Of a stretch of DNA of 64,000 nt, positions 2,286 through 17,403 are shown piece after piece; position 1 is the first letter of the stretch; each line of letters begins with the position of its first letter. Both the position numbers and the translations under genes were made by a program. This DNA comes from Paeniglutamicibacter psychrophenolicus. Its GTDB lineage: Bacteria; Actinomycetota; Actinomycetes; Actinomycetales; Micrococcaceae. The notes under the pieces were generated by a model. That model worked only from the letters and a program-made list of their open reading frames with translations. It was not told where the DNA came from and did no database searches. The stretch lies in the NCBI RefSeq assembly GCF_030812255.1, contig NZ_JAUSSH010000002.1, positions 310,001-374,000 of the forward strand, in the 5' to 3' direction.

Positions 2286-2690
2286 ATGGACGATGACAAG
2301 ACCCCCGCGGCGGTGCAGGAAGCCGACACCACCTACGACGCACTGCGCGCCCTGGCCCACCTCACCCTGGGAACCCACCCGGCACCGGTGGTGTACGGGA
2401 TCCTGGGAATCCTCAAAAACTTCGGCAGCTTCCTGCCCCAGATTTCCGAACAGCTCGCCCAGGGACTGGTGAAATCGCTCGAGGAATACGACGTCACCGA
2501 ATACGAGGGCAAAGACCCAGCAGTCAGCGTCACCCTGGACGGGGAACACCTCCCCCGGGCCGCAAAGCTGGCCCAGCAAATGGGCGAGGAACTGGCCAAG
2601 AGCCAAAACGCCATCGGCGGGCAAGGATACCGAACCGCCGAGGAGCGCCGCCGTCTGGAAGAACTCCGACGCGAAAACACCGGCGGCTAA
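2286..2690 (+). CDS. small hypothetical protein, helical
   Basis: The 134-residue product is predicted by eye to be mainly helical, with a hydrophobic centre (VVYGILGILKNFGSFLP) and a charged C terminus rich in Glu and Arg (AEERRRLEELRREN) that could form a short coiled coil. AGGAG lies just before the ATG. It follows the previous gene by 12 bp, and its stop is 2 bp before the next start, so the genes are probably cotranscribed. I recognise no family. Confidence 0.6.
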   Translation: MDDDKTPAAVQEADTTYDALRALAHLTLGTHPAPVVYGILGILKNFGSFLPQISEQLAQGLVKSLEEYDVTEYEGKDPAVSVTLDGEHLPRAAKLAQQMGEELAKSQNAIGGQGYRTAEERRRLEELRRENTGG

Positions 2691-2692
2691 CC

Positions 2693-2995
2693 ATGGGAAC
2701 GCTGGACCCCGATAAGTACCAGGAACTACTCAACGCCCACGACGAGCTGGACAACGTCCCGGTCCGCCTGACCCGCCACCAAGCGCAAAAATGTGCCGCC
2801 ATCATCGCCGCCGGCCAAGACGGCCATACCGCCTACGCCGAGGCCACGGTCACCGTCGCCAAGTACCTGCAGGCACTCGCCCTGGACGTGCTGCCGGGCA
2901 TTTCCCTCACCGAAAAGGACGGTGCCGCGCTGTGGCAGATTCTCGAGGACCTGCCCTGGCCCGCCCCCGGACCACCGGCTCAGCAACCCACCTGA
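2693..2995 (+). CDS. small hypothetical protein
   Basis: The 100-residue acidic helical protein starts 2 bp after the preceding stop codon, which suggests translational coupling. Its middle (LTRHQAQKCAAIIAAGQDG) resembles a helical bundle; the last 15 residues are proline-rich. I recognise no family. It ends the plus-strand cluster; the next genes run towards it from the right, with about 100 bp of non-coding sequence between, so this is the border with the defence locus. Confidence 0.55.
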   Translation: MGTLDPDKYQELLNAHDELDNVPVRLTRHQAQKCAAIIAAGQDGHTAYAEATVTVAKYLQALALDVLPGISLTEKDGAALWQILEDLPWPAPGPPAQQPT

Positions 2996-3097
2996 ACCGG
3001 CCGCACCACAAACCAAAACAGCCAAAGACGGCGTTGACGACCAAAAGGGTGTCCGCGTCATTGTCCGTGCAGCGGGCAAACTGAATCCTGCGCGTCC

Positions 3098-3463
3098 TTA
3101 GACTTGGTCGAAGATATCTCCAACACTGCCAATGTGGCCCTGACTGATGTCCAAGGCTAGGCGTCTCAGCCCTTTGCTCATCAGGATTTGGACGACTCTA
3201 TAGGGCTCGGAAGCATGTACGGGGTGCGTTTCCTGAACTATGAAGGCCATCAGTCCCTCATCATCGAGGTTTGAACTGACGTAGTTGGCTCCGCCCGGTG
3301 TCCCCGTCGAGATATCCCGCTCCGGGGACAGTCCTTTTTCTATTGCATAGGCAAAACCCAAGCGGATGAGTGACATCTGGTCCTCCAGAGCAAGAACCCT
3401 TTTCAAGTCCTCCACGCAAGCGTCTGCTTCGATCGTCAATGCGATGTTCCTCAGGTCAGACAT
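3098..3463 (-). CDS. small protein ending the ATPase/helicase defence operon
   Basis: The 121-residue product is the last gene of a five-gene minus-strand run and overlaps the end of the ATPase gene by 8 bp, so it is almost certainly cotranslated with it. The N-terminal half is helical (ALEDQMSLIRLGFAYAIEKG); the C-terminal half is more polar. Its length and place next to a DndD-like ATPase recall the small DndE protein of DNA phosphorothioation systems, but I cannot see a convincing sequence match, so function is left open. It probably forms part of the same complex. Confidence 0.65.
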   Translation of the reverse strand: MSDLRNIALTIEADACVEDLKRVLALEDQMSLIRLGFAYAIEKGLSPERDISTGTPGGANYVSSNLDDEGLMAFIVQETHPVHASEPYRVVQILMSKGLRRLALDISQGHIGSVGDIFDQV

Positions 3464-5408
3464 TGACTTGGCTCCCTTGCTTAGCTATTTCCGTGTGACG
3501 CACGGAAATTCGTTCCAACGAGTACTCGCTTATCAAATTCGCACCGAGTGCATCCACGGCTTCTTGTCGATCGAACTCGCCTTCGAATGCGAGTAGAACG
3601 ACTTGTCTAGCCATCTTCGGGAGAGCGGCAACCACGTGGGCAGTGTGGTCGCTATCTAACCGTCCGAAGGGTGAATCCATGATGACAGGACCTCGCACGG
3701 CTGCACTGTCCTGAAGAGCTGCTATCAGCGAAAGGGCGACAAGATGTTCATAGCCCGCCGATCGTCCGGTGACGACTTCATTATCTGGTCCCAGTATCTG
3801 GAGACCATAGCCTTCGGTGATGGCGAGGCCTCGATAGTCAGGTTCCGCGGCCAAATCAATGAAGACCTCGGAGGCACGCTGCTCTACTTTATTGCGGAGT
3901 TTGGCGCGGTACGCAGTGATGGACTCATCGAAGAGTTTGAGGAGTTCGGCTGCGACTTGTTCTTTAAGGATGACCGAAGGGTCGGTCTTACTGGCGTGGC
4001 TGCGAATGTTGCGAATGATTAGCTGGATAGAGGCATCTTGCTCGGCGACCTTCTTATTCAGGTCTTGATGTCTCTCGTTGTCCCGGTAAAGCTGGATCCT
4101 GCGTTGGTCCCGCTCGCTTTTCAGCTGGCGGATTTTATCCTCGCCGATGTTACTCAGCTTTGCCTCGATCTCAGCCATCTCTTCGAGAATCTCGTGTTGT
4201 TCCAGCTGTAAGTCACGAAGGGCCTTATCCCTGTCGGTCACTAGTCTTCTATCGATGGAGCTGAAGGAACTCCATTTTTGCTTGGAACGTCGCGATATCT
4301 CAAGGTTTACGTGCAGATCTTCACTGTTGAGACCACCAAGTCCATCCTGCAGCTCGGCGATTAGTTGTTCCCTAAGATGTGGGTCCGTCCCTCTATGGCA
4401 AACGGGGCAGTCTGAATGGAGATCAAGATGTTTTAGGTCCCGGTCCAGTGCTTGGGCGTTGCCCAGGTCCGTCTCGTATTTTTCGATCTGGGTAGTCAAG
4501 TGGTCGACGTGCTTCTTAGCCCGGGCTGAGATCAGTAGTTTCCAAAGGTCCGGGGAAAGTTCATTCAGTGCTTGCCGGGCCAGGACCTGGCCATCTTCGG
4601 TTCGTTTGAGTCCTTGGCGCAGTGAATCAAGCTTGTCCAATAGGCCTTCGCTCTGTTGGTGGGATCGGAGGAGCTCTTCGAGTTCGTCGAAGCGTGCCTG
4701 CGCCGCTTCTAGCTCCTTTACGATTTCTTGGGCAGACCGCTGATAACTGGCTTTGTAATCTTCGGCTGTCGTGAGGGCTGCGCCGAGCCGCTTCGTTTCG
4801 TCCTCTGTTTTGGCTATTTCTGCGAGCCTGCGGGCCGCTGATCTCCTATATTCTGAGACGTGTTCCCTGGCCTGGCTAACGAGGGGGATACCCAAAACTC
4901 GTTCGATTTCCTTCTCAAGGTCCTGTCCCTCCGGCGAATCGTTGTCCAAGAGTGCTTCGTACTTCCGCAGTAACTCCCCATCGAACAAAAAGAATTGACT
5001 GACTGAGCGCGGAGCCAGCTGGTTCATCACCTTGTCTGTCACATCTTGGGGGAGAACGGAGCCATCCCGCTCGAGCAGGATGGATTCTTGGGGATTTTTC
5101 CGGTCGTCATAGTTTCGAGTGAGCCGGTAATTTAAAGCGTCGCTGGTGAATTCCAGCACGGTCGCAAACGACCCATATCCCCGTTCCTTGCGGGACTCCG
5201 AATTGGCCAGTTCACTAGCCTGCTCGACTCTGTTTCGGCGCAAAATCTCCCCGTAGAGGGCATAACGGAATGCGTTGTGGAGGGTCGTTTTGCCCCTGCC
5301 GTTTGGACCGTACGCAATATAGACACCGCGATCCCGAGAAAATGAAATCGTTTGTTCGCCCTTGTAAGGACCGAAGTCCCGCATCGTGAGGCTATTTAGT
5401 GTCAACAT
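3456..5408 (-). CDS. DndD-like SMC/Rad50-type ATPase with zinc hook
   Basis: The 650-residue protein is an ABC-type ATPase of the SMC/Rad50/RecN class, closest in layout to DndD-like proteins of DNA modification and defence systems. Walker A (GPNGRGKTT) lies near residue 35. Two long coiled-coil arms (about 170-330 and 380-500) flank a CPVCHRG zinc-hook motif near 335. An ABC signature-like TGRSAGYEH and a Walker B (VIMDSPFGRLD) near 575 close the head domain; that Walker B is typical of DndD. The start lies inside the end of the upstream 71-residue gene (17-bp overlap). With the helicase and methyltransferase next door, a role in sensing or cutting unmodified foreign DNA is likely, but that is inference. 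Confidence 0.85.
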   Translation of the reverse strand: MLTLNSLTMRDFGPYKGEQTISFSRDRGVYIAYGPNGRGKTTLHNAFRYALYGEILRRNRVEQASELANSESRKERGYGSFATVLEFTSDALNYRLTRNYDDRKNPQESILLERDGSVLPQDVTDKVMNQLAPRSVSQFFLFDGELLRKYEALLDNDSPEGQDLEKEIERVLGIPLVSQAREHVSEYRRSAARRLAEIAKTEDETKRLGAALTTAEDYKASYQRSAQEIVKELEAAQARFDELEELLRSHQQSEGLLDKLDSLRQGLKRTEDGQVLARQALNELSPDLWKLLISARAKKHVDHLTTQIEKYETDLGNAQALDRDLKHLDLHSDCPVCHRGTDPHLREQLIAELQDGLGGLNSEDLHVNLEISRRSKQKWSSFSSIDRRLVTDRDKALRDLQLEQHEILEEMAEIEAKLSNIGEDKIRQLKSERDQRRIQLYRDNERHQDLNKKVAEQDASIQLIIRNIRSHASKTDPSVILKEQVAAELLKLFDESITAYRAKLRNKVEQRASEVFIDLAAEPDYRGLAITEGYGLQILGPDNEVVTGRSAGYEHLVALSLIAALQDSAAVRGPVIMDSPFGRLDSDHTAHVVAALPKMARQVVLLAFEGEFDRQEAVDALGANLISEYSLERISVRHTEIAKQGSQVNV

Positions 5409-5607
5409 TCAGGTCTCCCTTTTCCACGCGGCCGGCAGCCCAAGCGTTGATGATTTTGTCGCTTTGCTTTTTGGCTTCTGCAGCATCCGCCGAGAAATTC
5501 ACCTGGATATTCAGGAGATCTTCCACCAGCCTTGCGTCCAGACCTGGAAAATTCCTTTCTCGGACTTCTTGAACCGTCAAATACAGTTCTGATGAATCGC
5601 TCTTCAA
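5392..5607 (-). CDS. small protein between helicase and ATPase
   Basis: This 71-residue gene begins directly after the helicase stop codon and overlaps the ATPase start by 17 bp, which argues that it is real despite its size. The sequence is acidic and helical (YLTVQEVRERNFPGLDARLVEDLLNI, split here by its own predicted turn at FPGL). Small proteins of similar size often sit beside DndD-like ATPases in DNA modification clusters. No catalytic motif is visible; an accessory or bridging subunit is the simplest guess. Confidence 0.65.
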   Translation of the reverse strand: MKSDSSELYLTVQEVRERNFPGLDARLVEDLLNIQVNFSADAAEAKKQSDKIINAWAAGRVEKGDLNVDTK

Positions 5608-7737
5608 CTAATCCCCCTCAATTGATTCTTCATCTTCTTCATATCCTGCTTTCATGAGCTCACTGAGTTCTTCAAGTTGGATGCCCATGTCAATGATCTT
5701 CGCTTCAATTTTTGATACCGAGTCTGTGTTCAGTCCCCAGGCCGCGAATTGAGAAGCCCGCGCGAGTTCGCCGACGACGAGAGGCCATGAAGAGTCTGTT
5801 CGCTGAACTTCGTCGGGGAGCACCAAGATGTCCACCAAAGTCGCGATGGTTTTATTGGGTGCTTTCCTGAGAATCCTTCCTCGACGTTGGATGAACTCTC
5901 GCTCGTTGCGCGACGAAGCGATGACAAGTGCATGCGTAGCCGAGGGGATGTCTACTCCCTCGTCGAGGCACTTGATCGAAATGATGATTCCCCCTTCTGA
6001 ATCGAACATACGCAAGGTGTTTATCGGGTCGCCGGTCATGGCGCTGTGGTAAGCCCAGGCTGTTATATCGAGGTCGTTGAGACCCACCCGTAGTTCCTCT
6101 ACTTGCACTTGGTTGTCACAGTAGATAAGCCACTTTTGTTTCTCATCCGGCTTGTAGTTTTCAACGACAGTGCGGATCGCTGCGGGGATCTTGCGCGATG
6201 CAGACTTAGCTATGCGCGCCCGTTCAATGAGCTTCATCTTTAGCTGGTCGGACATAGGGGCGGTTGCGTCAGATGATCTATCCATTGCTGTGCGCCGGCG
6301 TATTTCCGTCGTCAGAATATCCCAGCGTTCTTGTTCTTCCTCGGTGAGACTGACCCACTGTGGATGGTATTCATACTTAGCCAGAACCCCGTCATCTAGG
6401 GCATTCTTCAGGGTGTATCGATGCACGGTGCCGTCGAAATAGTTGGAGACGGCCAGCGTTCCTTCGGGATCGTTTGCTCGGTTCGGAGTTGCGCTCAGAC
6501 CTAATCGCTGAGGTGCCGTTAGCCATTCAAGCAGTTCCCTGTACTGCAGGCTTCCGGCTCGATGAGACTCATCAAAGAGAACGAAGGCCTTATCCACGCC
6601 CCGCTGTACCTGGGCCCTGAACATCGGCGTGGATGCGCTGTTGAGCACTGCGACGATGACGTACGGTCGGTTCGTCTCATGGTTCTCCATGGCCGCCCTG
6701 AGGATGGGCGCTGTGCGCCATCTGTTATGTCCAGCACCGACGGAGATGACCTTTGCACCTAAGACCTCGCGTGCTTGTACGGCCCATTGCTCGAGTAGTA
6801 GCTTGGACGGCACCAGAATGATGGGGATGAGGCCGCCCCGGATCGCTTGTTGAGCGCAATATAGGCCCGAGACGCTTTTTCCGGAGCCAGTGGCATGCGC
6901 AAATATGCCTTGGTGGCCATTGGCTTGCCATGCCCTGAAGGCCGCCCCCTGATGGTCTCGGAGTTCGATCCCACCGACTTCGAGTTTTGCAGCGTTGGCT
7001 TTCGAGACGGAAGCGTCCCGAAGGAATGCTTCAAGGTCGACATCCTTCGCCACGATCTCGATCTCACGGCGGATGTCGTCGGGCAAACCCACAACGGTGA
7101 CGCCGGGGACCTTCGAATCCCAAATGTCCTCGAATCTTCCGACGGCTTTTGCGACCCGCTCGGCGTCCCTTCCACCGGCCCAGGATGGCCAGACATCGAT
7201 GGATTCAATATTCCCATGCCTAGAAAGCCCCAGGTACGTCTCGTTGAGGGAACCTCTGAATCCGACGCTGTCGCCGGCGGAGTCCCGAAACAAGCCAACT
7301 TTGTCATGAAACATGCTTTTGCTGCTGGAAGCGGTGTGCAGGGCGACTTTGGCCAGCCGTAGATCCAGAAGCCCGTTGGCTACCAGGGCGGCAAACAACT
7401 TAGCTCCGTCTGCCGCGGGAGAAGCAAGAAGATCTCGGAGCTCACAGCGGAGCATTTCGGAGAGCTCGGTATCGTTCCGCGCCGCATAGCCGTAGACGAG
7501 CCCATCGGCATCATTCGAACTCATCCTTGGAGAGCATAGAATTCGCATCCTCCCGCCGTTAGTTTGGAAAAAGGTGCCCAACGACCCGTGCAGCAGATGA
7601 AAAACCGTCGAGCTGAAGAATCCCGTGATCCGGTCGTAAGTCGTGGCGTGCCGATAGCACGGTCCGTAGAAATCCCTTGCTATGTCGTCCGATTCACTGG
7701 AGTACTCGGTTTTCAGGTCTCCTATCGCCCTGAGCAT
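5608..7737 (-). CDS. PLD-nuclease/DEAD-box superfamily 2 helicase
   Basis: The 709-residue protein joins an N-terminal phospholipase D-like domain to a superfamily 2 helicase. The PLD-like HKD signature is visible near residue 143 (FHDKVGLF, then GFRGSLNET). Helicase motifs follow in order: Walker A ATGSGKS near 285, DESH (motif II) near 390, SATPNR (III) near 415 and QRRGRILR (VI) near 618. A single HKD motif suggests the protein would act as a nuclease only as a dimer. Its ATG shares one base with the stop codon of the upstream 207-residue gene (TGATG). Helicases of this build occur in restriction and phage-defence loci; the role here is probably DNA translocation or cleavage with the ATPase. 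Confidence 0.85.
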   Translation of the reverse strand: MLRAIGDLKTEYSSESDDIARDFYGPCYRHATTYDRITGFFSSTVFHLLHGSLGTFFQTNGGRMRILCSPRMSSNDADGLVYGYAARNDTELSEMLRCELRDLLASPAADGAKLFAALVANGLLDLRLAKVALHTASSSKSMFHDKVGLFRDSAGDSVGFRGSLNETYLGLSRHGNIESIDVWPSWAGGRDAERVAKAVGRFEDIWDSKVPGVTVVGLPDDIRREIEIVAKDVDLEAFLRDASVSKANAAKLEVGGIELRDHQGAAFRAWQANGHQGIFAHATGSGKSVSGLYCAQQAIRGGLIPIILVPSKLLLEQWAVQAREVLGAKVISVGAGHNRWRTAPILRAAMENHETNRPYVIVAVLNSASTPMFRAQVQRGVDKAFVLFDESHRAGSLQYRELLEWLTAPQRLGLSATPNRANDPEGTLAVSNYFDGTVHRYTLKNALDDGVLAKYEYHPQWVSLTEEEQERWDILTTEIRRRTAMDRSSDATAPMSDQLKMKLIERARIAKSASRKIPAAIRTVVENYKPDEKQKWLIYCDNQVQVEELRVGLNDLDITAWAYHSAMTGDPINTLRMFDSEGGIIISIKCLDEGVDIPSATHALVIASSRNEREFIQRRGRILRKAPNKTIATLVDILVLPDEVQRTDSSWPLVVGELARASQFAAWGLNTDSVSKIEAKIIDMGIQLEELSELMKAGYEEDEESIEGD

Positions 7738-8360
7738 CAGATCCCCCCTTTGAGAAGAGTTTCCGTCGACCGTTGAAGGCGCAGCGACAATGCCTCAACC
7801 AGCCGCGCCGGTCGAGCGCACACTATAGTTTCGCTGACTCGCATCCCCTTTAGCCGGCGCTCCCCCTCGGCCAATCCTGCGGACAAGGCCCCGAAGACGA
7901 CTTCCGGCGGAGCCTGAATGCTCTTGGAGAACGGGAATCCAGCCCCCGCATCATGAAGGTCCGTATCCCACAAAATGAAGACATCCAGTTCGAGGTGATA
8001 CCCCACTACTATGGGGCGGACGCCCAGACTGCGGTCGAATTCATACCGCGAGCTACCTTCTACAACCTTCTGAATGCCGGAGGTGAGCTGAATTTTGAAG
8101 GTACCCAACTGCCGTTCGGAGGCATGCTGGGTAGCGTTATATATGTAGAAACGAAGCGAGTGGGGAAGTGGAAGCTCGGTCTTAACAATGAGTGGCTTCT
8201 GCTTGAGCGTTTCTTCGTCTGGAATCTCGGACAAGGAGCTAGATAAAGCCCTAATCAGGACTCGATGCAATTGAACCGTGGTGGCAGTTCCCTTGTCCGG
8301 AAGCGCCGAACGGAAAATGGCGTCGGGTACGGTCACCCATGACGGATCGAAAAGTGCCAT
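7737..8360 (-). CDS. MTaX1-like methyltransferase-associated protein
   Basis: The 207-residue product leads the minus-strand operon. Its pattern (FYIYNATQH near the middle, then KIQL, VVGYHLELDVFILWD, and a C-terminal FSKSIQ...VVFGALSAGL) resembles a domain found beside DNA methyltransferases and type II restriction genes that I recall as MTaX1; I assign this from memory with moderate confidence. The D-x-F-x-L-W-D segment is the most conserved-looking part. No clear PD-(D/E)XK triad is visible. A role in recognising target DNA or as a restriction component is possible. The methyltransferase gene is divergent, 215 bp away. Confidence 0.6.
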   Translation of the reverse strand: MALFDPSWVTVPDAIFRSALPDKGTATTVQLHRVLIRALSSSLSEIPDEETLKQKPLIVKTELPLPHSLRFYIYNATQHASERQLGTFKIQLTSGIQKVVEGSSRYEFDRSLGVRPIVVGYHLELDVFILWDTDLHDAGAGFPFSKSIQAPPEVVFGALSAGLAEGERRLKGMRVSETIVCARPARLVEALSLRLQRSTETLLKGGI

Positions 8361-8575
8361 GGCGGTTCCCCCAGTCCCAAATCGCTTGATGAATTATGAA
8401 TCTCAGTGTCTCAGCTGATTCGGGATTTATCCGTATTGACCACAGGAATAGCCAGGATTGGCGTAGTAGAGATCGATCTGGCCTCTTTGAGATTGATCTC
8501 ATCCAGATGCCCCTCCGGAGGAACGATGCTTGGAACGGCTAAGCTGAGATGTCGCAGATCTACTGAAGGAAGCTC
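8361..8575. promoter_or_regulatory. divergent promoter region between defence operon and methyltransferase
   Basis: These 215 bp separate two divergent starts and must carry promoters for both. I see a possible plus-strand -35 (TTGACC near 8437) but no clear -10, and no convincing operator. AAGGAAGC just before 8576 serves as the methyltransferase ribosome binding site. A 75-codon open frame on the minus strand overlaps the methyltransferase start and is judged spurious. Confidence 0.45.
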
Positions 8576-9565
8576 ATGCAAGAAATATTGGATGAAATGT
8601 CCGAACGGATCTGTTACACGACTTCGCTCGGAGCCCAAGCCTGCGGTGACAGTCTAGAGCTGCTCAGTCACTTGCCACCAGAGAGCGTGGACTTGTTCGT
8701 TACCAGTCCGCCGTTTCCTCTCCTCCGGAAGAAAGCGTATGGAAACGAGGACCAGGAGCAATACGTAGCGTGGCTGGTTCAGTTTGCCAAACTTGCTTTT
8801 GACGCCCTGAAACCTACAGGTAGCTTAGTGATCGACATCGGCGGCGCCTATCAGAAGGGCTCTCCCGTCCGATCCCTGCATCAGTTTCGGGCCCTGTTGG
8901 CATTTGTCGATGACCTTGGATACTTCCTCGCTGAGGAATTCTATTGGCACAACACTTCCAAACTCCCTTCTCCCATTGAGTGGGTGAATAAGCGCAAGAT
9001 TCGTGCCAAGGACTCCGTCAATACAGTCTGGTGGCTGTCAAAGAGTGAATTTCCCAAAGCGGACGTTGGCCGGGTCCGTGTTCCGTACTCAAAGTCCATG
9101 AAAAAGCTGCTGGAGAACCCGGCCAAGCACTACACACCTAAAGATCGGCCTTCCGAACACAAGATCGGTGAGGCCTTTGGAATCGATAACGGTGGGGCCC
9201 TCCCTGGAAATCTCTTGTCCATACCAAACAGCCAGTCCAACGATCAGTACTTGCGAGATTGCAAAGCAATGGGGTTAGTCGGTCACCCGGCGCGTTTCCC
9301 TGAGAAGCTCCCGGCATTTTTCATTGAAATGCTGACCGATCCCGGAGACTTAGTTGTGGACTTTTTCGGTGGTTCAAATACCACCGGCATGGCCGCCGAG
9401 AAGTTGAATCGGAAGTGGTTGAGCTTCGAGCTGGATCGTTCCTATGCTGCACTATCAGCAATTCGTTTCTTGCCTCCGGATATGGCCGCCGACTCGAAGC
9501 GCTTAGTAGTAGAACAAATCGTTGCCGGGTCTTCCGCTGAGCTCAGCCCTAAAACATCCGGATAG
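8576..9565 (+). CDS. DNA methyltransferase, beta-class (N4-cytosine or N6-adenine)
   Basis: The 329-residue enzyme would transfer a methyl group from S-adenosylmethionine to an exocyclic amino group in DNA. The catalytic motif IV, TSPPF, lies near residue 43, and the AdoMet-binding motif (DFFGGSNTTG, an F-x-G-S/G-x-T form) near 263. Motif IV before motif I marks the circularly permuted beta class. TSPPF is more usual in N4-cytosine enzymes, but specificity cannot be fixed from sequence. The target recognition region would lie between the motifs. It is divergent from the helicase/ATPase operon and would supply the self-marking activity. The DUF1643 gene follows after 12 bp, so the two are probably cotranscribed. 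Confidence 0.85.
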   Translation: MQEILDEMSERICYTTSLGAQACGDSLELLSHLPPESVDLFVTSPPFPLLRKKAYGNEDQEQYVAWLVQFAKLAFDALKPTGSLVIDIGGAYQKGSPVRSLHQFRALLAFVDDLGYFLAEEFYWHNTSKLPSPIEWVNKRKIRAKDSVNTVWWLSKSEFPKADVGRVRVPYSKSMKKLLENPAKHYTPKDRPSEHKIGEAFGIDNGGALPGNLLSIPNSQSNDQYLRDCKAMGLVGHPARFPEKLPAFFIEMLTDPGDLVVDFFGGSNTTGMAAEKLNRKWLSFELDRSYAALSAIRFLPPDMAADSKRLVVEQIVAGSSAELSPKTSG

Positions 9566-9577
9566 ACGACCTGCCAT

Positions 9578-10060
9578 ATGACCAGGCTTCTTGCCGTATT
9601 ACTCAATCCACCTCTCACCTCAGGGGTTGCTTCCCTGCGTCATGTTGAAGCGGCACGCCTAGCACTGGCATGCGATTCCGTCTTGATAGCAAATCTATTC
9701 TCGGAGCCCACCCGCTCCGTGGAAGACATCAACGTCATTGGAAAATGTCCAGAAGGATGGACCCAATCCAGGGAACAGCTACTGAACGCACTGGACAGCG
9801 CTGACGTGTTGATGGGAGCGTGGGGGATCAGTGGACTGACAGGAGAAGCTGCTCGGATGAGGAAATCACAGGTGGCCTGGCTTGCACAGTCGGCAATGGA
9901 CCAAGGGTTCGACAAGCTCTGGACTGTTGGGGGCACACCCCGCCACCCATCTAGATGGCACCAATATGTCAGTGATAAATATCAGAGGGCTGTGGGCGAA
10001 ACTCTTGAACTACGCCTTTCATCGGTCCTAAGCACTGTCGATTTGGCTGATTTTACTTAG
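9578..10060 (+). CDS. DUF1643-like protein
   Basis: The 160-residue product resembles the DUF1643 family: the opening 'LLAVLLNPPLTSG' matches the family's L-N-P-S/P motif, followed by a conserved-type 'ALACDSVLIANLFSEPT' and a later 'LMGAWG'. The family's activity is unknown to me; it appears often in mobile DNA. It starts 12 bp after the methyltransferase stop, with no strong ribosome binding site, which suggests coupling. Its 3' end touches the end of the decayed repeat-protein gene on the opposite strand. Confidence 0.7.
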   Translation: MTRLLAVLLNPPLTSGVASLRHVEAARLALACDSVLIANLFSEPTRSVEDINVIGKCPEGWTQSREQLLNALDSADVLMGAWGISGLTGEAARMRKSQVAWLAQSAMDQGFDKLWTVGGTPRHPSRWHQYVSDKYQRAVGETLELRLSSVLSTVDLADFT

Positions 10061-10580
10061 GTAGGATTTAGCCTCGCAATAACGCTAGCTTGTCGACTGC
10101 GGTTGGCGACAAACCGAACAAGTGGATTGTCGTCTCGCGCAAGAGCGGCAAGGACGGCACCGGGGCCGCGGGGTTCATGGCGACGAGGATGGCGAGGTCG
10201 ATGCTGCGGCCTACCAGCTCCGCAAGGAGAGTCCACGGCGTTGCGCCATTGAAGGTGACTGCCTGGCGAATTTGTTCGTCGTTGTCGTCGGCGAGTGAGC
10301 CCAGGACTGCGGCGGGGGTGTTCGGGTTCGCCGCGATGGCGCGCTTCATTTGGACGTTTCATTCTCCACCCAGCAGGGCAAGCAGATCCGCGTTAGCCGT
10401 CGAACTGAAAGCAACATGAATTCGGACCTCGGCGCGGTTGTGCGCGACCATTTCCTCCAAGGCAATACAGTCGGGACCCGAACGACGGGGTGGCCAGCTC
10501 CAATTCGGCTTTCACTTCACGCACCAAATCCACCGGCGTGGCAGGGTTCTTTGCAGTCTGTGGCTTCAGCTAAAGGCCAC
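10057..10580 (-). pseudogene. decayed paralogue of the LRV-repeat protein, C-terminal part
   Basis: Minus-strand translation gives the C-terminal part of the large repeat protein found intact at 14191-17403, broken in several places. 'NPATPVDLVREV' (about 10510-10550) is in one frame; 'ALEEMVAHNRAEVRIHVAF' and 'LLALLGGE' continue in another and meet an in-frame TGA near 10365; 'MKRAIAANPNTPAAVLGSL' (from 10349) carries on; then a further shift near 10165 is needed to reach 'VLAALARDDNPLVRFVAN'. The intact copy has LLGG-like 'FLGGERRSVKVRRAVAAHPN' and 'ALVRFVAD' at the matching places. So there are at least two frameshifts and one stop: a pseudogene, not expressed as a whole. Confidence 0.85.
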
Positions 10581-10672
10581 TTGCACGGGTCTATTTCAAT
10601 TCCGGTGCAGGGTGTCGGGTAAATGGATGCAGCTCGGTAGAGGATGCTCTCTGCCGTAGGGGTTCTCTGGGT

Positions 10673-11395
10673 CTAGTCGTGATGAGTCTGTTGGATGCCC
10701 AAACCCTTTTGCAGGTCCCGCCGCCGCAACAGATCAACACCTTCCCAGGGGGCTTCTACCCGACCTAAATTCTCTTCTTTCAAAAACTGCGGTTGAAAGC
10801 CTCTTTTCTCAAGACGACCGTAGTGAACTTCCCAGATGTCCCCAGGACAAGGTATGAGCTTTCCGAGCACTAATCCACTGCTTCTCCACTTGACCAGAAG
10901 AGACAAATCGTTGAGGTTGCGGTGAGTGCTGATCCTCCCGTAAATCGTCTGACCCGCCAGTCTGCCGTGTCTTCCCTTCGGAGGAACCGCGTCAGCTTCC
11001 CTCTTTGCTCTAACTTTTCCCTCCTGCTCTATCAGTCGGTTCATGTCAGTGCGACTCACAAGTCGCAATCCGAGCCAACTAATGGCCCCTCTAAGTAGCC
11101 TGGCTCCAGGCAGCCAAAAATTCTGCCGCCATCGGCGGGAAAAGAATGAGAGCAGAAGTGCCAAGACCGTCACTCCGACGATCCAAATTCCCCAGCCGAG
11201 GAGGACAAAAAGAAACTGATGCAGACCACTCAATGAATCCCACCACCCGCCCTCCGCGAAGAAACGACTGTTCTCGAAGAGTGGAGTGACAGCACCGATC
11301 TGGACCAATAACGGAAGACCTAGTACGGCGAGAAAGCGCTTGATGTCTGGTTTGAGCCCAGGCTCGTCCTGATTGTCCTTGGATTGCACAGTCAA
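10673..11395 (-). CDS. hypothetical two-pass membrane protein
   Basis: The 240-residue product has two probable membrane helices: about residues 24-42 (LAVLGLPLLVQIGAVTPLF) and 62-86 (FLFVLLGWGIWIVGVTVLAL). The remaining 150 residues are basic and probably cytoplasmic, with no motif I recognise. It stands alone between the decayed repeat gene and a gene-poor stretch. Small membrane proteins with a soluble tail can be effectors in defence islands, but nothing in this sequence shows that. Confidence 0.6.
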   Translation of the reverse strand: MTVQSKDNQDEPGLKPDIKRFLAVLGLPLLVQIGAVTPLFENSRFFAEGGWWDSLSGLHQFLFVLLGWGIWIVGVTVLALLLSFFSRRWRQNFWLPGARLLRGAISWLGLRLVSRTDMNRLIEQEGKVRAKREADAVPPKGRHGRLAGQTIYGRISTHRNLNDLSLLVKWRSSGLVLGKLIPCPGDIWEVHYGRLEKRGFQPQFLKEENLGRVEAPWEGVDLLRRRDLQKGLGIQQTHHD

Positions 11396-12072
11396 AGCTT
11401 ATACGGGTAGAAAGCAAGGCTTGGATCGATCCCCTGACTCTTACGAATTGCTGCTTCGGGAAGGATGTCGTGTTAGCCCAATTCGGTGAACTGCCCGGTG
11501 AAGGAGTGCAAAACGGAATTTATCGGGGCATCGACTTCACCAGCACGCGCGCTGTTGACGCCTACGAGACGAAGAACTCCCGGGCTCGGACGACCTCGTA
11601 GGCTGTCTCAGAACTCTAGGGATATGTGTCTCCTGCCTTCGGGACCTGTAGCCCAGCGAATGCCACAAAACAGAAGGGGGCATCGTGCGACCGGAGATTC
11701 TTATAACCATGTGTGTTGAAACCTAATGCTTGAAATGAGCTACTCCCCGAGGGGCACGAGACGTACCGAAGCCATAGATTATGAAGCTGATCGGCTCCCT
11801 GCATGTGCAACCTTCCAGATGCGAGGTCGTCCCATGCTTTGCTGTCGCATCAAAGGAACCTTTGATGCTAATGCGGGGACTTCGATCCCTTGAGGGGAAG
11901 AGACCTAGGACATCGACCGAGAAGAGGTCCCAACAGGGGGTCATACTTCCTCCGTCGCATAGAGGACGATCCGGCACCTTTGCTGAGACATTCGTGTCAC
12001 TATCGGAGTTGGAGGGAAGCCCATGCGTCGGCATAACGGGGCTCGAGGAACGAGCGATTCTTCTATGAAGTA
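11396..12072. other. gene-poor stretch
   Basis: I see no supported gene in these 677 bp. A short frame around 11485-11600 reads 'YRGIDFTSTRAVDAYETK' before a stop and could be a gene fragment, but I do not recognise it. A perfect palindrome lies at 11847-11868. Confidence 0.4.
11847..11868. repeat. perfect 22-bp palindrome
   Basis: GCATCAAAGG at 11847-11856 and its exact complement at 11859-11868 are separated by AA. The size and symmetry fit a dimeric regulator site or a short hairpin. No gene starts nearby, so its role is open. Confidence 0.6.
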
Positions 12073-12384
12073 ATGCTGCAACCCATTACACGAACACTGG
12101 CCACCTTCGCAGCCACACAGCAGCAGGCACGCGAACTACTGAACTCGCGCATCGAATCGGTAACCGATCTGGTCAAGGCACGCCAGTTCGTGACCGACCT
12201 GGAAGCCGAACTTGCGAAGCGAAAAAGGAGGATAAGAAGGCTTACGTGCGTGCCACCAAAGACGGGTGGAGGATCGACGAACTAAAGAAACTTGGGCTGG
12301 ATCGGCATGTAACGAAACGTCGCCGACAAACACACAAGAGGCCTTCCGGTGTTCGGTCAACCAGCCAAACGAATGAAAATCTGT
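12073..12384 (+). pseudogene. small gene with a -1 frameshift in an A5 run
   Basis: The frame from ATG 12073 reads 'MLQPITRTLATFAATQQQAR' and on to 'DLEAELAKRKRR', then continues poorly to a stop at 12285. Shifting back one base at the A5 run near 12230 (codons CGA AAA AGG) gives a much better continuation, 'KEDKKAYVRATKDGWRIDEL', then 'KKLGLDRHVTKRRR', ending at TGA 12382-12384. The joined 104-residue product is helical and highly basic at its end, like a small DNA-binding protein or antitoxin. The shift may be a mutation, a sequencing error or programmed slippage (AAA can re-pair at -1; AGGAGG overlaps the site). It ends 19 bp before the next gene. Confidence 0.65.
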
Positions 12385-12403
12385 GACGTACTAGGCTGGG
12401 CCT

Positions 12404-13831
12404 ATGACTTCCTTGATTCCTGCGGGCTCATCGCCCAACGCTCAGTTGCAACAGTTCGAAACGGCCCTTCTTGGGCACCTAGAGGATCTGGGGCTTCCGT
12501 CCGATGGCATCCTTGTGGGAATTCCCCAACGCGCAGCAGTTCTAAGCAATCTTCCGACCGCCTTAAGCGCCCTCGAAGGCGACGAAAGAGACCAGGCGAT
12601 GTACATCAGCAAGATGATCGCCGCTGCATCCGCAGGCCTTTTCGACGCAGCACTCAACTACCTCTGGGACGAGACGGTAGGTGTACTTCGGCAGCGTGTT
12701 GAAACCTACGACCTTGGGTACTTCTTTGATGTAGCGGTTCCCTCTCCCGACCGCCGTAAATACCTCTCCAAACCCGAGGATCTTGCTCAGGTTGCCGACG
12801 TCGACTTGTTGCGAGCTACCAAAGAGATGGGCCTACTAAGCGACGTAGGCCATCACCAACTCGATGGAATTCGTTATATGCGCAACCACGCCAGTGCTGC
12901 GCACCCGAATCAGATTGAAATATCTGGCTTGCAACTGGTGTCGTGGTTAGAAACCTGTATCCGTCAAGTGATCATGGCTCCCCCTGATGAAGTTGCCGCA
13001 GAAGTGGGGCGTCTGCTCAAGAACATTAAGGAGAGGCGTCTCACTGATCTAGAAGCAGGGTCCACGGCCATCTTCTTCTCGAACTTGGTTCCTGATCGTG
13101 CTGATTCAATCTCTTCCGGGCTGTTCGGTTTGTACTCAGATCCTAATGTCGCCGCACACACGGCGGACAACGTACGTGATCTATGGCCCCCCATTTGGCA
13201 ATACATCTCTGATGACGCCCGGTATCGTTTCGGTACGCTAATCGCTCGACACGTGGCCAATGCCGACCACGATAGAGCAGCCAAAGGACGTGAACTTTTT
13301 GATCTGGTTGACGGTGGCTCATTCCTCCCAGAACCAGTCAGAGCAGCCGAAATTTCGAGGTCACTCGAAGCACTTCTTACCGCCCATCATGGATGGAACA
13401 ACTTTGCGACCGAACCGGCACCAGCGCGGGCTCTAGAAGAACTAGTGGGGACCCAAGGGGACATTCCAAAAGCCCTGGCAAAACGCTATGTAGAGACCAT
13501 CGTTGAAGTGTTCTTAAGCAACGGCAGTGGAATTACATGGGCGGCAGATCCGATCTACCGGCGCCTAATTGAGAAGTTTGATTCAACACAAGCCGGATAT
13601 GCGCTAAGGGCTTTCAAGGGCGTGAACATAGCGAGTCGTCTCCAGACAGATCTCGCCCGTGGCCAGTGGAAGAAGCTCTTAGAATTGCTCGAACCAAAGC
13701 TCACTCGAAACGTCGACCGAAGCCTGCATGATGCTCTCCAGAAAACGAACATCACTCCTGACCTTTTGAGTAAAGATAGGGCAATCCTCAATCTCGCCAA
13801 TCCTCCCGCAGTAAAGCTGCGCAAGGGCTAG
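12404..13831 (+). CDS. HEPN-like hypothetical protein
   Basis: The 475-residue protein has no family I can name. Between residues 150 and 190 is 'DGIRYMRNHASAAHPN', which fits the R-N-x(4-6)-H pattern of HEPN ribonuclease domains, followed by 'LQLVSWLETCIRQVI', the kind of helix that follows that motif in abortive-infection proteins. The rest is helical with no metal-binding or nucleotide-binding motif visible. It follows the frameshifted small gene by 19 bp, so a toxin-antitoxin type pairing is conceivable, though unproven. Its codon use is less GC-rich than the catabolic genes to the right, in line with a transferred defence-type gene. Confidence 0.65.
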   Translation: MTSLIPAGSSPNAQLQQFETALLGHLEDLGLPSDGILVGIPQRAAVLSNLPTALSALEGDERDQAMYISKMIAAASAGLFDAALNYLWDETVGVLRQRVETYDLGYFFDVAVPSPDRRKYLSKPEDLAQVADVDLLRATKEMGLLSDVGHHQLDGIRYMRNHASAAHPNQIEISGLQLVSWLETCIRQVIMAPPDEVAAEVGRLLKNIKERRLTDLEAGSTAIFFSNLVPDRADSISSGLFGLYSDPNVAAHTADNVRDLWPPIWQYISDDARYRFGTLIARHVANADHDRAAKGRELFDLVDGGSFLPEPVRAAEISRSLEALLTAHHGWNNFATEPAPARALEELVGTQGDIPKALAKRYVETIVEVFLSNGSGITWAADPIYRRLIEKFDSTQAGYALRAFKGVNIASRLQTDLARGQWKKLLELLEPKLTRNVDRSLHDALQKTNITPDLLSKDRAILNLANPPAVKLRKG

Positions 13832-14190
13832 CCAGATATCCTCGTTCTACGTGATTAGAAGCATCGCCCGAACGGTGTGTCTTCCAAGAAAAACGATCGC
13901 GAAGTTGCCAATGAACCAAAAGCTGGCTTGACGCCATCGGCAACCGTTCAACCACCAATGAAAATACAACAAAGCTCGCACTAGCCACGGCTGCCCCGCG
14001 TCCACATGTGCACGGCAAAAGATATTTCCTTCGGTCTTTTCCCCACACATGTGGACACCGGGACCCAGCCCACCGCCTGCACACAACGCCCGGGGCATCA
14101 ACATCCCGAAAGGTGACCTGAAGTGACCGGGCGACGTGCACAACCTCCACTCACTGGGCTGCATGTCGTCAACCAGATTCGGATGACGTG
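13832..14190. other. intergenic region with an 11-bp inverted repeat
   Basis: No gene is supported in these 359 bp between convergent genes. GTCCACATGTG at 14000-14010 and its complement at 14046-14056 form an 11-bp inverted repeat with a 35-base centre; it could act as a weak bidirectional terminator or be the trace of a mobile element. Confidence 0.45.
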
Positions 14191-17100
14191 TCAGTCGGCG
14201 TTCTCGGTCCTTGCAGAGAGCTGAAGTATTTCAGCGCCAGCGACCAGCGCTCGATGAGTCCTCGTGATGTCGGCGACGAACCTCACCAGCGCTTCGCCAT
14301 CGGCTGCAAGTGCATCAAGCACCTCATCTGGTACTCCTGGGTTCAGCGATACCAGAAGCGCGAAGTCGAGGCTCCGGCCTGCCAGTTGCACCAGCAGTTC
14401 AGCCGGCGTATTGGAGTTCAAGGCAATAACTTGATGCACTTCTAAATCCTTGTCGGTTGCCAGCGACCACAGGACTTCTGCAGGCGTGTTCGGATGGGCG
14501 GCCACCGCCCTGCGTACCTTCACGCTCCGTCGTTCTCCGCCGAGGAACTTGAGGATATCCGGTGGTGCGTCCTCGTTGTAAGCGACCTGAATCCGCGTCT
14601 GTGCCTTTGTAGCTATGGCCATCTCTTCTAGGTCAGCACGTGCCAGTCGCGATCTAGTTGGCTTCTCGTGACGTTCAAGCTCCCCATGATGTACGTCCTG
14701 GGCATTAGCCGAAGGGTTCTGGCTTGCAGCCTGGCGAACATGGGGATCATCATCAGTGAGCAACACTCGGAGAGCCTCTTGCGAGAGATTCGAGTTCCTG
14801 GCGACAGCCAGACGCACCACGACATCATAGTCTTGAGAAAGTTCAATCAGCGCCGAGAGCCCTGTCGCATGGTTCCCAGCAGCAGCAGCTCGTACATCTG
14901 AGTCAAGGTCAGTTGCAAGTAGTTCCAGAACAGTAGCCGACGCACGAGTGTTACCGGCCACCACTCGTCGAACTCCCTCATCGGCGCTCTTTGAAAGTCT
15001 CTTCAGCGTCCGCTCACCGGCACGCCCGTCGCTGCCAACCTCATAACGCATGTCAGGTTCGCGAACACGGCTCCTGGACAGCTCATCGAGCGCGCCCTCG
15101 ACCAGTGTCGTGGGTAGCGTCACGTCCATTCGGTAAGCCAATGCGTCAAGAATCGACAAGAGCTCTTGGTCGACACTGTCCACCAAGAGCTCCTGCGCGA
15201 TCGAAGTCGCCAGATCCGCGGGCGTCGCGGGGTTGCTGAGCACGGCGAGGCGCACCGCCCGACTGCGGTCCGTGGACAACGCCGCGAGCATCTGCAGGGG
15301 GGCCTGCATGTTCCCGGCCAGGATCTCACGCACATCGGCTATCCGAACGGATGCCAAGGCCTGTAGGACCTCCGGCGGCGTGTGAGGAGATGAGGCAAAC
15401 AGCTCACGTGCAGCGAGCGACCTGGACGCGATCATCTTGTGAATGAGGGCTTCGAGGTCCCCTGATTCGAGAGCGGTGTTGCGCGCCAGGGCGAGCAGAA
15501 CTTCAGGTTGCTTGCTTTCAATGAGCCCCTGAAGCACCTGGCGGGGCGTCGCTGGGTGCCCCGCAAGGAGTCGAAGAACCTGCTGGTCAAGCTCCGTCGG
15601 TGTCGGGGACCAATACGCAGAGTTGTGCTCGTCCTTGCAAAAACGCAGACGAACTTCACGCGACCCGGCTAGTTCCCCGAGAAACTCGGACAGACTGTCG
15701 TCTGTCTGCTCGAGGGTCCGCTTCAGCGTCGACCAACGTATCTCGGCATCCCCATCTTTGAGAAGCCTCGTCCTGACTTCGACATCGGACACCGGCAGGC
15801 TCCCAGCCACGACTCTGCGCACAGCTGCCGGTCGATCACCCCGGAAAAGGTCGGCCATCACAGCGTCGGAGAACCCGCCCTGCAGTTGATGCGGGAACCG
15901 GAACGGGCGACCTGAGATGTATGACCACATTTGGCTGGCTTCCGGTACCTGGACTCCAACCTGGTAAGCAGGGTCGGCGTGTAGCGCCCTGGACAAGAAA
16001 GTTGTGAGCCATCTCGTGTCCAGTGACCAATCTGCGCGATCCTGGTTGATCTCAACGGCGCCGCCAATGAAGTCGCGTGCATTGCCAGTAGTGACTGGCT
16101 GATCGATCATCGCCAATGCATCTGGCTGACTTCCCCTAGTGCCAGAGCCCAACGCGGTTGCAGATTGCCACGATGACCCTCGGTTCGTAGCCGCGGCTTG
16201 TTGAACCATCACGCTCGAATCGCGGGAGAGCGTTTCGAGCACATCTGCAGGAACGCGTTCGTTCGTCGCTACGCCCTCGCGTGCCCGCGCGTAGCGATCC
16301 TTGGCTAGCAACCGCACGGTGGCTTCAGGGGTCATGTCGTTGCGTCCCACACGGAACCGGATGTCGGTGTCGTCACTGTTAGCCAGTGCGTCCAGCATCC
16401 CTGGGCGAGTGTGTCGGTTGTCTGCCAAAAGCTGGTGCTTACGCCGTTGTGTGGCGGGAATGTGCAGGGCAATCTGAGTAGCGTTTGTCGCTTTGATGAA
16501 TTCATCGCGCAACCTGGGCAGGACTTCTTCAGGATCCCCAGCAAGGAGGTACTCAAGGCGCCAGGTCGGCGTCAACTGCTGCCGGGGAAGCCAGAGGCCC
16601 ACATGCCGGATCTTCAGGGCGTCGTCGAGGTCGAGCATCACATAGCCCAACAGTTGCAGCAGGAAGTTTCGAAGTTTGGGGGTCGATAGCTGGCCGTAGA
16701 CCTTGCAGTCGATCAGCGTCTCACCTATGAGCCAGTCTCCGTCTGCGCCGTCGACCAAGAGTGAGCCCGCGAAGTCAGGGTTCGGCTCGAAGCGGTCGCC
16801 ACCTGCGATCTGCGACTTCCATGCGTCAACTTGTAGAGTGCCAGCGTTCATCAGCGCACGCACGTCCGCCAACACACCGGAATCAATGTTGTTTGCGAAC
16901 TCATGAGCGCTCAATGCTTGATCGCATGCTTCTCCCAGCTGCCCCTGCAAAGCCATGGTGCCGCCACGGAGAATTTGTTCGCAGTACGCAAACAAGACCG
17001 CGGCAAGATCGAGCTGGGTCTCATCCTTGGTGTCGAGAAGAAGTCCTTCAGCTAAATCGAAGCTCTCGGCAAGGACAGTAGCTCGGTGGCGACCGTTCTC

Positions 17101-17403
17101 GATGTGGTCGGCTTGTGCAAGCAACCTGGAGACACCGGCGAATGACGCAGATATTCGTGCGTCGAAGCCGCCCAGTGCGATCCGGGCTCGAATGTCCAAG
17201 GCGGTCCCGGTCGTGGCGGAGTCCCCACCCTGAGGAGCAGACACCATCGCGGGGCTTCTTGTCAGATCCTCCAAGCCCAGGGAAGCTGCCATGGCTCGGG
17301 CACTGCTCGTTGGGCCACGGAGTGAAGATATGTGGGGCGAGATGCCCTCAAGGAATGCGCGCACAGGAGACTCTGAATCCCTGAGGCGATCTGACAAGCT
17401 CAT
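14191..17403 (-). CDS. PD-(D/E)XK-like domain fused to leucine-rich-variant repeats
   Basis: The 1070-residue protein has two parts. The first 300 residues carry a probable RecB-like nuclease core: an acidic strand (LLVDGADGDW), D232-C-K234 in 'LIDCKV', and Q250-x3-Y254 in 'QLLGY', which together match the D...(D/E)xK...QxxxY pattern of that superfamily. From about 305 to 1045 the sequence is built of about 24-residue helical units with recurring 'NPxTPxxVLxxLAxD' and 'VRxAVAxNP', the leucine-rich variant (LRV) repeat. The repeats would form a long solenoid for binding DNA or protein. A decayed paralogue lies at 10057-10580. A defence role is inferred from the setting; metal-dependent nuclease activity is inferred from the motif only. 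Confidence 0.75.
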   Translation of the reverse strand: MSLSDRLRDSESPVRAFLEGISPHISSLRGPTSSARAMAASLGLEDLTRSPAMVSAPQGGDSATTGTALDIRARIALGGFDARISASFAGVSRLLAQADHIENGRHRATVLAESFDLAEGLLLDTKDETQLDLAAVLFAYCEQILRGGTMALQGQLGEACDQALSAHEFANNIDSGVLADVRALMNAGTLQVDAWKSQIAGGDRFEPNPDFAGSLLVDGADGDWLIGETLIDCKVYGQLSTPKLRNFLLQLLGYVMLDLDDALKIRHVGLWLPRQQLTPTWRLEYLLAGDPEEVLPRLRDEFIKATNATQIALHIPATQRRKHQLLADNRHTRPGMLDALANSDDTDIRFRVGRNDMTPEATVRLLAKDRYARAREGVATNERVPADVLETLSRDSSVMVQQAAATNRGSSWQSATALGSGTRGSQPDALAMIDQPVTTGNARDFIGGAVEINQDRADWSLDTRWLTTFLSRALHADPAYQVGVQVPEASQMWSYISGRPFRFPHQLQGGFSDAVMADLFRGDRPAAVRRVVAGSLPVSDVEVRTRLLKDGDAEIRWSTLKRTLEQTDDSLSEFLGELAGSREVRLRFCKDEHNSAYWSPTPTELDQQVLRLLAGHPATPRQVLQGLIESKQPEVLLALARNTALESGDLEALIHKMIASRSLAARELFASSPHTPPEVLQALASVRIADVREILAGNMQAPLQMLAALSTDRSRAVRLAVLSNPATPADLATSIAQELLVDSVDQELLSILDALAYRMDVTLPTTLVEGALDELSRSRVREPDMRYEVGSDGRAGERTLKRLSKSADEGVRRVVAGNTRASATVLELLATDLDSDVRAAAAGNHATGLSALIELSQDYDVVVRLAVARNSNLSQEALRVLLTDDDPHVRQAASQNPSANAQDVHHGELERHEKPTRSRLARADLEEMAIATKAQTRIQVAYNEDAPPDILKFLGGERRSVKVRRAVAAHPNTPAEVLWSLATDKDLEVHQVIALNSNTPAELLVQLAGRSLDFALLVSLNPGVPDEVLDALAADGEALVRFVADITRTHRALVAGAEILQLSARTENAD

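Follow-up and report, generated by a model that had tools for sequence, protein, structure and literature searches.

A probable methylase-type PbeABCD locus with an M.PvuII-like methyltransferase in Paeniglutamicibacter psychrophenolicus

Here, we describe a compact PbeABCD-like locus at positions 3098–10060 of a 64,000-nucleotide stretch of Paeniglutamicibacter psychrophenolicus DNA (NCBI RefSeq assembly GCF_030812255.1, contig NZ_JAUSSH010000002.1, positions 310,001–374,000 of the forward strand; hereafter the window). Five genes form a minus-strand operon, the first of which encodes a 207-residue MTaX1 protein (7737–8360) and is followed by genes for a 709-residue PbeA protein that fuses an HKD/PLD nuclease to a superfamily 2 (SF2) helicase (5608–7737), a 71-residue protein in the PbeB position (5392–5607, with a TTG start), a 650-residue PbeC protein, which is a CxC zinc-hook ABC ATPase from the sister clade of DndD (3456–5408), and a 121-residue protein in the PbeD position (3098–3463), a DndE cognate according to the literature. 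Divergent from this operon, the plus strand carries the gene for a 329-residue M.PvuII-like, beta-class cytosine-N4 DNA methyltransferase (8576–9565) and, 12 bp after it, a gene for a 160-residue DUF1643 protein (9578–10060). A preliminary description of this DNA had five minus-strand genes, overlapping by 1, 0, 17, and 8 bp, facing a methyltransferase and a DUF1643 gene, and the list of open reading frames (ORFs) in the window places all of them accordingly; its suggestion that the products work together is plausible. The Pfam domains at the locus are MTaX1, N6_N4_Mtase, DUF1643, AAA_23, and a ResIII/Helicase_C pair. An Rfam scan of positions 2500–11000 gave no match, and promoter and terminator scans gave signals that did not rise above those of shuffled sequence.

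The two large proteins of the operon were named by profile. PADLOC identified the 709-residue protein as PbeA (PDLC02707, E = 4.2e-185), and Pfam recognized ResIII (E = 1.8e-17) and Helicase_C (E = 2.3e-9) in it; the PLD domain was not found in the Pfam scan, and the H, K, and N residues of the HKD motif are invariant in all 81 rows of the PbeA alignment. The 650-residue protein was identified as PbeC (PDLC02747, E = 3.7e-175); DndD matched it less strongly (E = 2.2e-49). Its zinc hook scored 18 bits in Pfam, below the cut-off of 24.3 bits, and of the 77 PbeC rows in the alignment, 76 have the CxxC motif and one is gapped at that place. NCBIfam agrees in kind with both PADLOC names, though below its cut-offs (dnd_restrict_1 at 293.8 bits against 600 for the 709-residue protein, and DndD at 147.3 bits against 245.85 for the 650-residue protein). 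The compact defence operon with a PLD helicase and a DndD-like zinc-hook ATPase that had been proposed initially is therefore borne out.

Genome contigs were scanned with six aligned PbeA proteins, yielding at least 556 candidate relatives, and the best 80 of these were analyzed with our own ORF calling and profiles, MTaX1 being counted when it lay within 300 bp upstream of PbeA. By this measure, 26 of the 80 loci have MTaX1 immediately before PbeA, and their hosts include Actinomycetota, Bacillota, Bacteroidales, Pseudomonadota, Acidobacteriota, and Nitrospirota. Recurrence on this scale, across several phyla, places the MTaX1–PbeA gene order far beyond chance, and the conservation of gene order that the preliminary description had proposed to look for in other genomes is thus present for this pair. 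The nearest loci among the 80, one from Segeticoccus and two from Streptomyces, have a PbeA 59–60% identical to that of the window and the same divergent methylase–MTaX1 layout. A profile match for an N-methyltransferase (N-MTase) lies within 6.5 kb in 21 of the 26 MTaX1 loci, and DndC in none of them; the loci without an N-MTase match are L067, two contigs of 5.2–5.5 kb (L049 and L059), and two loci whose candidate ORF has a methylase-like motif only (L068 and L086; Pfam found no domain in the L068 ORF). Among the other 54 loci, N-MTase occurs in 14, DndC in 14, and both together in none. C5 methylases, which were sought in the drawn neighborhoods by motif only, were flagged once (L093).

The methyltransferase matched PADLOC MTase_II (E = 2.2e-151) and Pfam N6_N4_Mtase (E = 1e-40), in keeping with the beta class first assigned to it, and aligned to M.PvuII (PDB 1boo_A) with E = 2.1e-127 over residues 10–324, that is, nearly full length and through the target-recognition region. 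Its counterpart on the Proteus vulgaris plasmid NC_002632.1 (4,675 bp) shares 59% identity with it. M.PvuII recognizes CAGCTG and modifies it to CAGm4CTG (PMC2614495); as a homolog of M.PvuII, the window enzyme is therefore predicted to have CAGCTG specificity and to place the same mark. Relatives at E ≤ 1e-40 were found in 2 of 296 genomes, including the enzyme's own, the second being 62% identical. Seven of the MTaX1 loci (L046, L047, L048, L058, L060, L063, and L066) encode methylases 61–78% identical to the window enzyme, with 61–80% identity in the recognition region, the limits of which were chosen by us; a further ten of the 80, together with the plasmid locus L042, have a methylase at 41–54% identity and a PbeA without MTaX1 upstream. 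Across the 19 loci with related methylases, a set that takes in the first 20 kb of the window, CAGCTG occurs at 0.68 of its Markov expectation (96 against 141.6), the fourth lowest value of 62 palindromic hexamers, and the per-locus counts fall below expectation in 16 of the 19; in 66 other loci, used as a control, it stands at 0.87 (rank 19 of 64). We keep this depletion as a hint to the site, given that the stretches are short and the hosts not matched. A CAGCTG at 8412–8417, in the divergent promoter region, had raised the idea of autoregulation, which was dropped when no such site was found there in L046, L047, or L048.

The 71- and 121-residue proteins had no meaningful match in PADLOC, Pfam, or NCBIfam. 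An iterated profile built from the 71-residue protein matched 27 of 93 searched loci at E ≤ 1e-3, and in the neighborhoods that were drawn the family lies in the slot that separates PbeA from PbeC; with 38–40% identity to its three nearest relatives over 57–58 residues, the protein fits PbeB, which is small, evolves fast, and occupies that slot. The corresponding profile from the 121-residue protein matched 50 of the 93 loci (47 of the 80 genome loci). This protein has the place and size of PbeD, for which the published criterion is a DndE cognate with two RHH domains (PMC10853773). Compared with the proteins in the PbeD position at 13 other, largely Dnd-linked loci, its family is collinear over 103 columns in a weak match (probability 12%, E = 0.0024), set against probabilities of 0.1–0.5% in four unrelated profile comparisons that served as a control; the PbeD-position protein of L043, the only one of the 13 scanned, matches NCBIfam dnd_assoc_4. 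Separately, PbeD is followed by an ORF of 832–945 amino acids in L070, L072–L077, L080, L081, L084, and L098, which are PbeABCD loci without MTaX1 upstream. In the two cases tested (L075 and L080), this large protein contains an RNA polymerase alpha C-terminal domain and sigma-70 region 4, and sigma-like proteins also follow PbeD in L042 and L062; in PMC10853773, the main text uses the word "sigma" a single time, of a DndH variant.

With PbeA, a PbeB slot, PbeC, and a cytosine-N4 methylase with MTaX1 nearby, the locus is, very probably to judge from its sequence, a methylase-type CxC-ATPase/PbeABCD system acting by modification-guided restriction. Methylase-type CxC-ABC-ATPase/DndE systems were described from genomics with the same HKD-SF2 helicase, small protein, CxC ATPase, DndE cognate, cytosine-N4 methylase, and MTaX1 (Rakesh, Aravind and Krishnan, 2024; PMC10853773). 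The gene set is thus already known, and the preliminary view that it matches no described system does not hold: PADLOC names PbeA and PbeC, and between the profile searches and that paper every component is accounted for, the putative PbeD by place and size, except DUF1643, which has no occurrence in the paper's main text and alone lies outside the published set. The claim of novelty accordingly mostly falls, although the predicted M.PvuII-like specificity, which this locus has in common with a few related ones, sets it apart from the published account. Our search for experimental studies of methylase-paired PbeABCD, which covered titles and abstract openings with subscription papers mostly outside it, found none.

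The nearest tested relative is the DndCDEA-PbeABCD system (Xiong et al., 2019; PMC6459918). Profile matches link PbeA and PbeC to it, position and size link PbeB and PbeD, and the genes stand in the same order, PbeA-B-C-D. The locus differs from it in having a DNA methylase and MTaX1 and in that no Dnd modification genes were seen beside it; DndC (TIGR03183), the one Dnd gene covered in the genome-wide search, had no match in the 35 contigs of the organism's own genome. The tested system reduced plaques about 10^4-fold, and virus carrying the phosphorothioate (PT) mark escaped it; protection needed pbeB, pbeC, and pbeD, and pbeA in part. In the same work, 155 of 553 PbeAC homologs were shaded for a nearby methyltransferase, and methylation-paired modules were proposed (PMC6459918). 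Viral DNA replication was inhibited in PT-PbeABCD, and Xiong et al. reportedly found no cleavage of viral DNA (PMC6459918); the nature of the restriction event has been called still obscure (PMC12707154). Compared with the PvuII type II restriction-modification (RM) system (PDB 1boo; PMC2614495), the methyltransferase corresponds over nearly its full length at about 59% identity, whereas MTaX1-PbeABCD would stand in the place of restriction and the methylase has MTaX1 and DUF1643 as its neighbors. Likeness to Hma and to DISARM/Dnd-type systems had also been noted in the preliminary description, and of this the Dnd-type kinship stands. Hma likewise combines a helicase, a methylase, and an ATPase, but it is a three-gene operon with a 5-methylcytosine (m5C) methylase, HmaB (Payne et al., 2021; PMC8565338), whereas the locus has an N6_N4_Mtase enzyme of the M.PvuII type with a Pbe-family helicase and ATPase, and this identity was rejected. 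DISARM was rejected as well: among the PADLOC matches listed for the seven proteins (the best 25 of 71 for the ATPase and the best 25 of 61 for the methylase) no Drm profile appeared, and NCBIfam gave only DrmD at E = 0.083.

The MTaX1 assignment made earlier for the 207-residue protein is firm (PF20296, E = 5.1e-18, 66.1 bits against a 25-bit cut-off), and its AlphaFold2 model is confident (predicted local distance difference test, pLDDT, 90.6). A Foldseek search of the model against the PDB, in which distant folds can be missed, found no solved relative (best E = 0.43); a comparison with viral models gave nothing credible (best E = 0.005, template modeling score 0.29), nor did the MTaX1 profile against PDB sequences (best E = 0.062), and a single-protein query did not find MTaX1 in viral contigs. 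In other loci, MTaX1 is fused to HTH_17 (L057 and L064), to HNH (L045 and a second copy in L061), and, weakly, to an AAA domain (L117). These fusions fit a role in DNA reading or targeting, and we propose MTaX1 as a candidate reader of DNA or of its modification. Separately, two Acidimicrobiaceae loci (L050 and L056) have two MTaX1 proteins each, one with a long N-terminal extension adjoining PbeA and the other with a C-terminal extension adjoining two large methylases; MTaX1 was the only domain that Pfam named in them.

Which subunit would read the site was approached through covariation, starting from the 26 MTaX1 loci and the window and dropping L049 and L059 (cut contigs), L054, L060, and L069 (no PbeC or PbeD row), and L067, L068, and L086 (no methylase match), which left 19 loci, with methylase classes set by hand. 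The MTaX1 and PbeA trees largely follow each other, and once PbeA is accounted for MTaX1 does not track methylase distance (partial r −0.11, p 0.92; second run −0.21, p 0.997), so MTaX1 was rejected as the site reader by this measure. PbeD does track it (partial r 0.48, p 0.0005; second run 0.60, p 0.0005), with values of 0.30 to 0.70 when each of five clades is omitted in turn, and PbeC is intermediate (0.19, p 0.017; second run 0.27, p 0.004); on 36 loci, PbeC equals PbeD (0.34 and 0.31). The seven M.PvuII-type rows that remain without L060 lie together on one side of a single branch in each of the four protein trees (22 loci), which do not conflict, with support of 98/96 for PbeC, 95/92 for PbeD, 68/52 for PbeA, and 61/18 for MTaX1. 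Covariation thus points to PbeC or PbeD, at most as a hint and not as a claim, since about five independent clades underlie it and the permutations ignore relatedness. L060, from Enterococcus, combines an M.PvuII-like methylase (61% identical) with a PbeA and MTaX1 of the Bacillota group; its PbeA groups with two Bacillota loci (support 98/97), and the methylases of other members of that group are less similar. The methylase therefore appears exchangeable without exchange of MTaX1, and this single case speaks against a rigid reading of sequence by MTaX1.

The DUF1643 protein is a true member of its family by a narrow score (PF07799, E = 2e-5, 25.1 bits against a cut-off of 22.5), as described initially. 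Three of the 80 genome loci have relatives: L068, L083, and L058, in which the gene immediately follows the methylase. Because six of the seven M.PvuII-type MTaX1 loci, all but L058, show none (L060 being a 5.3-kb contig), DUF1643 is not core, and on gene content it is an occasional accessory. A uracil-DNA-glycosylase-like fold, guessed from an HPSRW motif, was not supported: no DNA glycosylase was among the best 50 Foldseek matches to its model (pLDDT 84.2 from only five sequences), the best PDB match had E = 0.012, and its profile found nothing credible among PDB sequences (best E = 0.9). As a separate observation, a phage contig (L126:3968–6254) carries DUF1643 followed directly by two ORFs resembling DNA methyltransferases by motif; DUF1643 may be a phage-borne partner of methylation.

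The locus lies in a variable segment (3005–17893, no strand) delimited by match edges and GC content, its edges being approximate. The left flank is 92% identical to the same-genus genome G014, where the match ends at window position 3000, with ends at 2976, 3004, and 2738 in L138, L139, and L140 (four stretches from the genus compared); the match resumes at about 17,896 in G014 (82%) and at 17,893 in a second genome, G002. By coordinates, the segment spans roughly 14.9 kb in the window, against 36.6 kb for G014 and 43 kb for G002, and GC is 0.53–0.57 in the five 2-kb bins of 4,001–14,000 compared with 0.63–0.69 in 20 of 21 bins beyond 22,000. Ten of the 22 ORFs listed from fetched parts of the G014 and G002 segments were scanned. 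Among their products, G014 has an M.Eco57I-type methylase (PADLOC, 4.7e-257) together with a GmrSD_N protein, and G002 has a CoiA nuclease-like protein as well as one resembling type IIG RM proteins (2.5e-28). It is thus a variable chromosomal segment of mixed cargo with restriction-modification genes in all three same-genus genomes. MTaX1 was found in 3 of 99 genomes searched, its own included, and in none of 14 other genus members. Beyond the DUF1643 gene, a minus-strand ORF of 93 amino acids (10,068–10,349) resembles, by eye, the C-terminal end of a 1070-residue LRV-repeat protein (14,191–17,403) and is likely a truncated copy of that gene; of the ORFs between the locus and the LRV gene, one of 475 amino acids (12,404–13,831) had no match in PADLOC, Pfam, or NCBIfam, and one of 240 (10,673–11,395) gave nothing above cut-off in Pfam and NCBIfam, the two databases used for it.

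In the mechanism that we propose, the M.PvuII-like enzyme would mark host CAGCTG as CAGm4CTG, the PbeC ATPase and the DndE-like PbeD would scan DNA, MTaX1, as a DNA-reader module, would help to distinguish marked from unmarked DNA, and unmarked foreign DNA would engage the PbeA helicase-nuclease to block or cut, with PbeB as a putative small regulator. The exact site, every step after the marking, and the activity of the locus itself are inferred. Several points weigh against this account. The PbeB and PbeD assignments rest mainly on position. CAGCTG is not avoided in the window compared with dinucleotide shuffles (31 against 22.9, with 6 of 100 shuffles reaching 31). Only one methylase replacement is available, that of L060, whose PbeD is off the contig, so that any one subunit is at most a candidate reader of the site. 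P-type ATPases in the G014 and G002 segments, and redox genes in G014 (a VKOR protein and a pyridine-nucleotide oxidoreductase), make this a spot that is not for defence only. Finally, given that Xiong et al. reportedly found no viral DNA cleavage (PMC6459918), the last step may block foreign DNA without cutting it.

A variant of this mechanism, not exclusive of it, is that modification serves as both licence and shield, PbeABCD being inactive without its mark, such that loss of the methylase would abolish defence and the cell would survive. Haloarchaeal pbeABCD without the PT mark gave neither protection nor toxicity (PMC6459918), as this variant would have it; that behavior has been seen only for the PT-paired version, however, and the window sequence does not decide, and we regard the variant as possible without favoring it. 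An abortive system, in which PbeB restrains the nuclease until infection frees it against host DNA, has been proposed for PbeB cognates (PMC10853773), and PbeB is indeed small and diverges fast. This alternative is unlikely for the present locus, given that in the PT system marked virus escapes and viral replication is inhibited (PMC6459918), which a choice between self and non-self fits better.

It is less probable still that the methyltransferase and DUF1643 are a separate orphan methylation unit merely adjoining the Pbe operon. The pair does lie on the opposite strand, the methyltransferase follows PbeD and does not adjoin MTaX1 in L058, L063, and L066, and 2,095 plasmid records carry relatives of the enzyme at E ≤ 1e-30, of which 2,093 fall below 60% identity; against this, seven of the 80 loci pair an M.PvuII-like enzyme with MTaX1-PbeA, another ten pair a more distant one with PbeA, and DndC is missing from every MTaX1 locus. 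That the locus is a relic in a decaying island, as the apparently broken LRV-repeat piece beside it might suggest, is very improbable, given seven frames that are all open, intact motifs, and tight overlaps.

Modification-guided restriction by a methylase-paired PbeABCD system, the reading that we prefer, has been proposed in general form by two groups (PMC10853773; PMC6459918). A stronger and speculative joint reading, which we think unlikely to hold in all its parts, would make MTaX1 a reader of base methylation for PbeABCD whose fold has no solved relative, the M.PvuII mark a signal that switches the machine on and does not merely spare the host, and DUF1643 an added enzyme of the modification arm. 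The tested haloarchaeal version works only with its mark (PMC6459918). McrBC, for its part, attacks M.PvuII-marked DNA (PMC2614495). An M.PvuII-like methylase makes the way in which PbeABCD distinguishes self from non-self testable with off-the-shelf tools, in that M.PvuII can mark any phage and the PvuII endonuclease reads the mark.

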